This document shows, in pieces, positions 11,146 to 15,228 of a DNA stretch of 64,000 nt. The notes below the pieces were generated by a model that was not told the origin of the DNA, made no database searches, and was given only the letters and a program-made list of their open reading frames with translations. Both the position numbers and the translations under genes were made by a program. Origin of the DNA: Mumia quercus (GTDB lineage: Bacteria; Actinomycetota; Actinomycetes; Propionibacteriales; Nocardioidaceae); contig NZ_JANZYO010000003.1 of the NCBI RefSeq assembly GCF_025506335.1, positions 372,001 through 436,000 of the forward strand. Reading direction: 5' to 3'. Numbering within the stretch: the stretch's first letter is position 1; each line of letters begins with the position of its first letter.

Positions 11146-12852
11146 GTGAACGACGACACGGCCCCCCAGCACTACGACGTCCTCGTGATCGGTTCCGGCT
11201 TCGGCGGGAGCGTCACGGCCCTTCGCCTCACCGAGAAGGGATACCGCGTGGGTGTCCTCGAGGCGGGGGCACGGTTCCGTGACGAGGACTTCGCGGCGAC
11301 GTCGTGGGACCTGAGGCGCTACCTCTTCGCTCCTGAGGTCGGCTGCTACGGGATCCAGCGGATCAACCTGCTCAAGGACGTGATGATCATGTCCGGCGCA
11401 GGCGTGGGCGGGGGCTCGCTCGTGTACGCCAACACCCTGTACGAGCCGCTGGAGCCGTTCTACCGCGACCGCGCCTGGGGGCACATCACGGACTGGAAGG
11501 CCGAGCTCGCTCCGTACTACGACCAGGCGAAGCGGATGCTGGGCGTCACCACGTACCCGCACATCACGCCCGCGGACCTGGTGATGCGCGAGGTGGCCGA
11601 GGACATGGGGGTCGGCGACACCTTCCACGCCACGCCGGTCGGGGTGTTCTTCGGCGGGCCGGGTGAGAAGGCGGCCGACCCCTACTTCGGGGGCGTCGGC
11701 CCCGAGCGGACTGGCTGCACCGACTGCGGCGAGTGCATGACGGGGTGCCGCCACAACGCGAAGAACACGCTGGTCAAGAACTACCTCTACCTCGCAGAGC
11801 AGGCCGGGGCGCACGTGCACCCTCTGACGACGGTGACGCGGGTCAGCCCGCGCGCCGGCGGCGGCTACCTGGTCGAGACGCGGCGTACCGACCGTCGCCG
11901 CAAGGTCGTGCGTGCGTTCACCGCCGACCAGGTCGTCTTCGCCGCCGGGGCCCTCGGCACCCAGAAGCTGCTGCACCGGATGCGCTCCGAAGGGGTGCTC
12001 CCGCGGATCTCCGAGCGGCTCGGGGTCCTCACCCGGACCAACTCCGAGTCGCTCCTCGGAGCGATCGCCAACGGCCGCGACGTCGACTACTCCGAAGGCG
12101 TCGCGATCACGTCGTCGTTCCACCCCGACGAGGTGACGCACATCGAGCCGGTCCGCTTCGGCAAGGGGTCCAACGCGATGGCGATGCTCCAGACCGTCCT
12201 CACCGACGGCGACGGCCCGCGTCCTCGGTGGCAGACCTGGCTCCGGGAGCTGTGGGCGCAGCGTCGCAACGTGCGCACGCTCTACGACTTCAAGCACTGG
12301 TCGGAGCGGGTGATCATCATGCTGGTCATGCAGTCGGTGGACAACTCGATCACGACCTACATGAAGAGGAACCCCGTCACCGGTCGTACCCGCCTCACGT
12401 CGAAGCAAGGACTCGGCGAGCCCAACCCGTCGTGGATCCCGAAGGCGAACGAGGCGGTCCGCCGCACCGCGACCAAGATCGACGGGACGCCGGGTGGCAC
12501 CATCGGCGAGCCGTTCAACATCCCGCTCACCGCGCACTTCATCGGGGGCTGCGCGATCGGTGACTCGCCCGACAGCGGCGTCATCGACCCGTACCACCGC
12601 CTCTACGGGTACGACGGCCTCCATGTCGTCGACGGTGCGGCGATCTCGGCGAACCTCGGGGTCAACCCGTCCCTCACGATCACCGCTCAGGCCGAGCGCG
12701 CGATGGCGATGTGGCCCAACAAGGGCGAGACCGACACCCGGCCCGCCATGGGTGAGCCGTACGCCCAGGTCGAGGCCGTCGCGCCCAAGAGCCCGGTCGT
12801 GCCCGCCGACGCCCCCGCCGCCCTTCGCCTGCCCATCGTCGGAGTCAGCTGA
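11146..12852 (+). CDS. GMC-family FAD oxidoreductase, ChoD (cholesterol oxidase)-like
   Basis: The 568-residue protein starts with a dinucleotide-binding motif (VLVIGSGFGGSVTALRL) and a FAD-contact segment (SGAGVGGGSLVYANTLYEP), and ends with the GMC C-terminal domain (HFIGGCAIGDSPDSGVIDP ... GVNPSLTITA). It resembles mycobacterial ChoD, which lies in the same guaB-guaA neighbourhood; a sterol substrate is not proven. At about residues 192-202 it has CTDCGECMTGC, a Cys-x2-Cys-x2-Cys-x3-Cys pattern like an iron-sulfur ligand set. The GTG at 11146 follows the -10 TACGCT by 6 nt, so the mRNA is probably leaderless. It is separated by 84 bp from the aldehyde dehydrogenase with which it shares a promoter motif. 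Confidence 0.85.
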   Translation: MNDDTAPQHYDVLVIGSGFGGSVTALRLTEKGYRVGVLEAGARFRDEDFAATSWDLRRYLFAPEVGCYGIQRINLLKDVMIMSGAGVGGGSLVYANTLYEPLEPFYRDRAWGHITDWKAELAPYYDQAKRMLGVTTYPHITPADLVMREVAEDMGVGDTFHATPVGVFFGGPGEKAADPYFGGVGPERTGCTDCGECMTGCRHNAKNTLVKNYLYLAEQAGAHVHPLTTVTRVSPRAGGGYLVETRRTDRRRKVVRAFTADQVVFAAGALGTQKLLHRMRSEGVLPRISERLGVLTRTNSESLLGAIANGRDVDYSEGVAITSSFHPDEVTHIEPVRFGKGSNAMAMLQTVLTDGDGPRPRWQTWLRELWAQRRNVRTLYDFKHWSERVIIMLVMQSVDNSITTYMKRNPVTGRTRLTSKQGLGEPNPSWIPKANEAVRRTATKIDGTPGGTIGEPFNIPLTAHFIGGCAIGDSPDSGVIDPYHRLYGYDGLHVVDGAAISANLGVNPSLTITAQAERAMAMWPNKGETDTRPAMGEPYAQVEAVAPKSPVVPADAPAALRLPIVGVS

Positions 12853-12865
12853 CGCCTGTGTGGTC

Positions 12866-13194
12866 GGTCGAGTAGCCCGAGCCGCCCCACATGGTTGGTC
12901 GAGTAGTCCGAGCCGCTAGGCGAGGACGTATCGAGACCTGGTCTCGATACGCGGTCTCGGCTAGCGCCTCGCCCGCTACTCGACCGGCCGGGTTTAGTTG
13001 GTCGAGTAGTCCGAGCCGCTGGGCGAGGGCGTATCGAGACCTGGTCTCGATACGCGGTCTCGGCTAGCGCCTCGCCCGCCACTCGACCGGCCGGGTTTGG
13101 TTGGTCGAGTAGTCCGAGCCGCTGGGCGAGGACGTATCGAGACCTGGTCTCGATACGCGGTCTCGGCTAGCGCCTCGCCCGCTACTCGACCGGC
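12866..13194. repeat. palindromic intergenic repeat array: one truncated and three full 103-bp units
   Basis: This array fills most of the 373-bp gene-free stretch between the GMC oxidoreductase and the GIY-YIG gene. Full units begin at 12895, 12998 and 13101 (period exactly 103 bp); a truncated unit start lies at 12866-12885. Each unit opens with GGTCGAGTAG and closes with CTACTCGACC or a close variant, and has a 12+1+12 perfect palindrome at its centre (CGTATCGAGACC, T, and its complement; 12927-12951 in unit 1), so it would fold into one long hairpin. The units differ at only a few positions, so duplication is recent or homogenised. The period and hairpin structure do not fit CRISPR. Confidence 0.9.
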
Positions 13195-13225
13195 TGATGT
13201 GAGGGTGGTTCGTATCGAGACTCCG

Positions 13226-13516
13226 TCACTTTCGCCGACGCCAGCGCTTCTTCGCCAGGCCGTGCAGCGCCTCGTAGTCACCTCGGATCAGTGCTTCCCG
13301 CTTCGCGCGGGACCACCCCTGGACCCGCTTCTCCCAGGCGTATGCCTCGACGACGGTGTCGAACTCCGCTGCATAGACGAGCTCGACCGGACGTCGTCGC
13401 TTGGTGTAGCTGGCTCCGATGCCGTTCTGGTGCTGATGTACGCGGGCGTCGAGGTCGTTGGTGCTGCCGACGTAGTAGCTGCCGTCGGCGCACTGAAGGA
13501 TGTAGGTCCACGGCAT
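13226..13516 (-). CDS. small GIY-YIG nuclease-family protein
   Basis: Ninety-six residues beginning MPWTYILQCADGSYYVGST, the GIY-YIG signature (here YIL and YVG), followed by the Arg helix (NDLDARVHQHQNG), a tyrosine in ASYTKRRRPVELVY and the Glu-containing EAYAWEKRVQGWSRAKREALI. The domain is the whole protein, as in YhbQ/UPF0213-type standalone nucleases. Its cellular role is unknown. The ATG at 13516 is chosen over the ATG at 13564 because the GIY-YIG fold begins at once. It is surrounded by palindromic repeats: the 103-bp array lies downstream and an inverted half-unit lies 60 bp upstream, so the gene sits inside a segment bounded by 43-bp perfect inverted repeats. Confidence 0.88.
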   Translation of the reverse strand: MPWTYILQCADGSYYVGSTNDLDARVHQHQNGIGASYTKRRRPVELVYAAEFDTVVEAYAWEKRVQGWSRAKREALIRGDYEALHGLAKKRWRRRK

Positions 13517-13575
13517 GACCGTGAGTGTCGCGGTGGTGCGCTGCCCGGCGTGACGGTTGTCCACAGGGGTGGACG

Positions 13576-13618
13576 GGTCTCGATACGTCCTCGCCTAGCG
13601 GCTCGGACTACTCGACCA
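13576..13618 (-). repeat. inverted half-unit of the palindromic repeat
   Basis: These 43 bases are the exact reverse complement of 12896-12938, the first half of repeat unit 1, and differ by one base from the matching part of unit 3 (13102-13144). Together they bracket the GIY-YIG gene as terminal inverted repeats about 720 bp apart. It lies just upstream of the guaA promoter. Confidence 0.9.

Positions 13619-13662: not shown

Positions 13663-15228
<1,566 letters not shown>

Follow-up and report, generated by a model that had tools for sequence, protein, structure and literature searches.

A small GIY-YIG nuclease bracketed by inverted REPs as the likely enzyme of a REP-based mobile system

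The question raised by this locus is why the gene for a 96-aa GIY-YIG protein lies inside a cluster of palindromic repeats, and whether protein and repeats belong to one system. The window, i.e. the whole 64,000-nt stretch of DNA that was analysed, contains a segment of about 0.8 kb made of three 103-nt units, the minus-strand gene and one inverted REP. The initial annotation, made from the sequence alone, had proposed that the nuclease nicks these hairpins and spreads or homogenises them, an idea to be refuted by repeats equally abundant in genomes lacking the gene or by a lack of co-variation between repeat and protein. Its description of the locus, with 43-bp perfect inverted repeats around the gene and three 103-bp units plus a truncated one facing an inverted half-unit, holds; the interruption of a guaB-to-guaA neighbourhood has to be corrected, the immediate neighbours being a GMC oxidoreductase gene (11146-12852) on one side and guaA (13663-15228) on the other.

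Next to the GMC oxidoreductase gene lies a REP remnant, left part only (12862-12885, plus strand, GGTCGGTCGAGTAGCCCGAGCCGC), which resembles the REP start. The units start at 12894, 12997 and 13100 and are 100/96/94% alike; unit 1 (12894-12996) consists of a REP at 12897-12938 (plus), 1 nt and an inverted REP at 12940-12985 (minus), unit 2 (12997-13099) has REPs at 13000-13041 (plus) and 13043-13088 (minus), and unit 3 (13100-13202) at 13103-13144 (plus) and 13146-13191 (minus), the units themselves being assigned to neither strand. A truncated REP tail (13209-13221, plus strand, GTATCGAGACTCC) lies just past the stop codon of the gene, which occupies 13226-13516 on the minus strand (96 aa plus stop; 112 aa from an upstream GTG start). 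On the guaA side, the outer inverted REP (13576-13618, minus strand) is the exact 43-bp reverse complement of 12896-12938 (46 nt at 98% in a wider comparison). The pattern GGTYGAG-N(0-40)-TCGARACC finds seven REPs in the 64 kb, all at the GIY-YIG locus.

The REP of the window is about 43 nt long, with the ends TGGTCGAG...TCGAGACC; these ends differ, and the REP therefore has a direction. In the 103-nt unit, a single nucleotide separates a REP from an inverted REP, and the TCGAGACC ends lie inside. Inverted REPs bracket the gene likewise, their TCGAGACC ends (TCGARACC) pointing to it, so that the unit looks like a gene-free cassette. The 51 REPs in 15 fetched repeat loci of the window's genome are mostly paired as well: 19 pairs have the TCGAGACC ends facing each other across spacers of 1-8 nt, 12 show the reverse arrangement across 14-17 nt, and 3 are tandem. 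A lone 43-nt REP is a weak hairpin (z of -1.2 and -0.8), whereas a REP pair is strong (z = -6.4 for the unit 1 stretch 12896-12988 folded as single-stranded DNA). The 103-mer gives 117 BLAST matches on both strands of the genome (4.10 Mb, 13 contigs); this is not a copy number because some of the matches are the two strands of one palindrome and only 40 of the 72 candidates were scored. In three loci from other actinobacterial families (L264, L265 and L269), the REP ends TGGTCGAGTAG...CGTATCGA are identical to those of the window, a likeness that thus extends over several families.

The 96-aa protein is a single-domain match to PF01541 (E=1.2e-18), with only a weak T5orf172 match besides in Pfam. 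No transposase family in Pfam matches it; the Y1 HUH transposase with its catalytic tyrosine, expected of a RAYT/REP system, is missing, and there is no match in NCBIfam, PADLOC or PHROGs; a defence or phage family was dropped as a candidate given the empty PADLOC and PHROGs results. The AF2 model (pLDDT 88.9) has UPF0213 and SLX1 as its nearest folds in the PDB, and the sequence profile agrees. Six residues (Y5, Y15, G17, R25, H29 and E62) do not vary across an alignment of 43 homologues; Y, R and E are catalytic in GIY-YIG enzymes, and a GIY-YIG fold with these three residues, as expected of a UPF0213/SLX1-like protein, is present. By family and modelled fold the protein is thus predicted to be a UPF0213/SLX1-like nuclease; that it is active is inferred from the sequence only, with which the invariant residues fit, there being no cleavage data. 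SLX1 is a structure-specific nuclease, and its family includes YhbQ and YazA according to a review (PMC7017083); for E. coli YhbQ, the annotation is that of a nuclease of the DNA damage response. A protein search of the window's genome finds one gene of this kind, and a PF01541 search adds two GIY-YIG frames of 683 and 746 aa, one of which is presumed to be UvrC.

The bracketing of the gene by inverted REPs of fixed polarity extends across the family of the window's organism. Among 92 loci, the best-first part of the gene matches in 197 genomes, a typed REP lies no more than 450 nt from the gene in 91. Inward REPs are found on both flanks in 73 of the 85 loci with long flanks, compared with none of 85 windows located 900-1350 nt away, and the inverted similarity of the flanks beats every far control in 79 of 84 loci. 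It exceeds the direct similarity in only 42/84; the direct similarity is equally high because the arrays hold both orientations, and some loci (L022, L046) sit in long arrays.

The presence of the gene correlates with the abundance of the repeat. The gene was found in 104 of the 197 genomes of the family, and a search with a 43-row profile again gave 104; in the same genomes, the pattern GGTYGAG-N(0-30)-TCGARACC was counted, with the reversed pattern as the control (0-3 matches per strand). Genomes that have the gene reach a median REP density of 22.0 per Mb, versus 4.7 per Mb in those that lack it (p = 2.4e-22), so that the first refuting outcome, equal abundance, is not borne out. The difference persists within each of the three largest genera (p = 3e-9, 3e-4 and 2e-3), and none of 5000 within-genus shuffles reached the observed value. 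There are exceptions in both directions. Among the 93 gene-negative genomes, 14 have at least 40 matches (G002 146, G063 106, G150 94, G176 87, G148 69); search misses were rejected as the cause given that the profile search again finds no gene, and completeness is only 83-90% for G063, G148 and G150. G002, with its 146 matches and no detectable GIY-YIG gene, might have lost the gene or might use another enzyme. Conversely, 10 of the 104 gene-positive genomes have fewer than 25 matches, most of which are explained because their REPs escape the pattern. In nine, the flanks contain either REPs not caught by the pattern or REPs of a type that is otherwise scarce in the genome: two belong to a second subfamily (G064, G144), three have REPs with CC as the outer bases (G080, G108, G131), two have GATC-type REPs (G076, G120) and two have REPs that exceed the pattern length (G085, G123); the flanks read provide no explanation for G072.

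The repeat also co-varies with the protein. There are five main REP types, which differ in boxes inside the ends. When the types are mapped on the protein tree of 86 loci, 18 changes are required versus 50.5 after shuffling, and none of 200 shuffles is as low. The nearest protein from another genome is flanked by the same type in 58 of 76 cases (shuffled mean of 15.9), within genus g7 in 40 of 49 (11.0 expected) and within genus g20 in 9 of 9 (4.1 expected; reached in 9/2000 shuffles). Paralogues within one genome initially differed in REP type in 13 of 13 genomes (122/5000 shuffles as extreme) and, after 19 further loci, in 19 of 24, the exceptions being G033, G046, G075, G126 and G194. The second refuting outcome, lack of co-variation, is therefore not borne out either; linkage of gene and flank alone could nevertheless, at least in part, make REP type follow the protein. 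A prediction made beforehand, that genomes with a GATC-type-flanked gene should be rich in GATC-type REPs, held in one of three genomes (G058, 60 matches) and failed in G076 and G120, each of which has only two exact GATC-type matches, both flanking the gene. Further GATC-type counts are 22 in G129, 23 in G097, where the gene is broken, and 40 in G087, where no gene was detected.

Sites without the cassette exist in related genomes. In G004 and G005, the GMC oxidoreductase gene is directly followed by guaA; in G001, a gene-free spacer separates the two, in G002 a different gene lies upstream of guaA, and in G003 the gene adjoins guaA in the opposite orientation with another REP type. Similarly, Azospirillum lipoferum 4B carries a cassette with CGTC REP pairs between sufB and sufC, and the spacer lacks it in all four relatives compared (A. 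oryzae, A. ramasamyi, Azospirillum sp. B510 and A. argentinense). A target-site duplication could not be resolved at the guaA or the sufB-sufC sites because the spacers differ between relatives.

Near-identical cassettes also occupy several sites of one genome. In G126, four cassettes (L119, L285, L286 and L287) occupy one and the same position in four paralogous genes and are 96-99% alike, with left flanks at 81-93% and right flanks at 90-97%; cassette identity is above that of both flanks in 6/6 pairs. The pattern fits recent spread or homogenisation of the cassette, with duplication followed by conversion as a remaining possibility. The interrupted genes may be of a 13E12/DUF222-HNH-like type, without support from Pfam, in which two short pieces had no match. 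G018 has a pair of genes amid REPs, with start positions separated by 445 nt and 4 differences in 282 nt. Copy number ranges from one in the window's genome to near-copies in G018 (a tandem pair) and G126 (four).

Beyond the family, the gene was found in 30 of 296 genomes of the class of the window's organism, 11 of these outside the family; among the 11 loci read there, the inverted flank score exceeds 38 in 6, and REP ends are visible in another 2. The first ten plasmid-borne relatives to be read are evenly split, with five bracketed by inverted repeats and five not. A genome scan with alphaproteobacterial relatives yielded the best 80 loci from many phyla, many of them metagenome-assembled, with 71 usable. 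In 52 of the 71, inverted similarity exceeds the highest far control, and a loosely defined CGTC-type tag is present on both sides in 43 of these 52, compared with 0 of 60 far windows; the tag occurs on at least one side in 14 of the 19 unbracketed loci. The strict whole-REP CGTC pattern is met on both sides in 21/71 loci, and the tag lies outside in 44 of the 58 flanks with a strict match. A typical flanking repeat is CGTCATTCCCGCGAAGGCGGGAATCCAG; in Novosphingobium aromaticivorans there is a 29-bp exact inverted repeat with a 4-nt tag, 8-bp stem and 5-nt loop. These repeats have the features of CGTC REPs, namely the CGTC tag, 8-9 bp stem, 4-5 nt loop and short tail, and the association of the gene with CGTC-type REPs spans many phyla. 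The same features are absent from the window's REPs, with their TGGTCGAG and TCGAGACC ends. CGTC matches were counted in 50 genomes and found in 44, with no clear difference in copy number between genomes with a bracketed (median 22, n=31) and those with an unbracketed gene (14, n=19), the medians having been taken by hand. None of the eight controls, which are YazA/YhbQ-type or other distant relatives, is bracketed by inverted repeats, and neither are two further distant relatives. CGTC REPs were reported by Di Nocera et al. in 2013 to be a large superfamily with no dedicated enzyme and no transposase gene flanked by them (PMC3733652); N. aromaticivorans and A. lipoferum, which that survey names as hosts, are both among the bracketed GIY-YIG loci.

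The protein is likely to be a nuclease dedicated to a REP-based mobile system, one that resembles RAYT/REP but relies on an unrelated enzyme; neither cleavage nor movement has been observed. The proposed link between nuclease and REPs is supported well beyond the window, and spreading or homogenising fits the near-identical G126 cassettes in less similar flanks; nicking, spreading and homogenising themselves remain inference. In this reading, the cassette would be the gene-bearing form of the system. A small SLX1-like, probably structure-selective GIY-YIG nuclease would recognise its own REP type and cut at hairpins or cruciforms formed by REP pairs, and repair or replication across the break would copy REP dimers (the 103-bp units), and sometimes the whole REP-gene-REP cassette, to new places or homogenise them, each nuclease lineage retaining its own type. 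REP recognition, cutting, strand choice and the copying route are all inferred.

The closest comparison is with RAYTs (TnpA-REP), the Y1 HUH transposases tied to REPs elsewhere (PMC2817692), whose systems are also called REPtrons or REPINs. The features of that system are a gene between two inverted REPs, co-variation of protein and REP, REP abundance that tracks gene presence, and gene-free REP pairs (PMC2817692); the first is met (73/85 near, 0/85 far), the second is met with linkage alone not excluded, the third is met with exceptions, and the REP pairs provide the fourth. Unlike in RAYT/REP, the enzyme is a GIY-YIG nuclease, and the window's REPs lack a GTAG tag at the end. RAYTs cut their REPs as single-stranded DNA (PMC8266576), and their genes are single-copy, with each paralogue distinct (PMC3116915); the one copy in the window's genome and the all-different REP types in 19 of 24 multi-gene genomes agree with this, and the near-copies in G126 and G018 depart from it. 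Given that the features are largely met except for the enzyme, the system functions in the manner of a RAYT/REP system without being one. The flanking repeats in other phyla are mostly of the CGTC type with the CGTC end mostly outside, as in CGTC REPs (PMC3733652); the window's REP, with GGTYGAG..TCGARACC ends and no CGTC tag, differs. The protein shares fold and sequence family with UPF0213/YhbQ/YazA and SLX1, but the controls, of that kind or otherwise distantly related, are unbracketed (8/8).

Among the alternatives, the one that survives best, although unlikely, is host upkeep, in which a host repair nuclease removes or resolves cruciforms of REPs spread by something else and co-varies with the REPs because it must recognise them. 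It is favoured by the UPF0213 and structure-specific SLX1 folds, the annotation of YhbQ and the repeat-rich genomes without the gene; however, it predicts neither the bracketing by inverted REPs nor the absence at related sites or the near-identical multi-site cassettes, and YazA/YhbQ-type relatives are unbracketed. It is very unlikely that a RAYT moves the REPs with the GIY-YIG protein assisting, e.g. in hairpin resolution: RAYTs are tied to REPs elsewhere (PMC2817692), but according to the 2013 survey, CGTC REPs flank no transposase gene (PMC3733652), although a RAYT in the window's genome is not excluded. Least probable of all is a passenger gene that landed by chance in the REP arrays of repeat-rich genomes and is carried by REP recombination, for which the long arrays at some loci (L022, L046) and the high direct-orientation similarity speak, but which is hard to reconcile with the 91/92 loci with nearby typed REPs, the 0/85 far-window pairs, the tie of REP type to protein clade, the sole two exact GATC-type matches flanking the gene in G076 and G120, the repetition of the pattern across phyla, and the far-window, shuffle and distant-relative controls.

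Within the preferred reading, a bolder version appears to have the balance slightly in its favour: the GIY-YIG family would supply the missing enzymes of the CGTC and actinobacterial REPs, and a hydrolytic hairpin nuclease, not a transposase, would copy palindromes and its own cassette by break-induced repair in many phyla. If true, this would be a new chemical class of bacterial mobile element, REP systems would have two separate origins with unrelated enzymes, and a dispersed repeat could perhaps be maintained by a nuclease that lacks transposase chemistry. REPs are common in bacteria, and one of the two large superfamilies in the 2013 survey was left there without a dedicated enzyme (PMC3733652); the system could account for the spread of a class of orphan bacterial repeats, and a named 96-aa nuclease makes the question of the REP enzyme testable. 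Among the titles returned by literature searches, which did not cover bioRxiv and most subscription journals, none joins GIY-YIG with REPs; an earlier description is thereby not excluded.

Homing endonucleases of the GIY-YIG type are another known comparison. Like these, the system has a GIY-YIG domain and, in G126, cassettes at the same site of paralogues; unlike these, it is bounded by dispersed REPs, and the search of the 96 aa gave no second domain. The G126 cassettes interrupt the paralogues at one site, as a homing element would.

In genus g20, 11 loci (L225-L235) belong to a second GIY-YIG subfamily, which is distinct in its C-terminus and in the repeats that flank it; their inverted scores are 26-168, with 8/11 above 38, without a far control.

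Finally, a CTGTGGA box lies about 50 nt upstream of the start codon in the window (13560-13566, minus strand). CTGTGGA, its reverse complement or, in 2 loci, a one-base variant is present within 200 nt upstream of the gene in 84 of the 92 loci, in 83 of them 47-59 nt before the start, compared with 8 of 420 control windows. The box may serve as an operator or as a site of cutting. The box, CTGTGGA or TCCACAG, occurs in one of two orientations at two positions, which would be the halves of one dyad.
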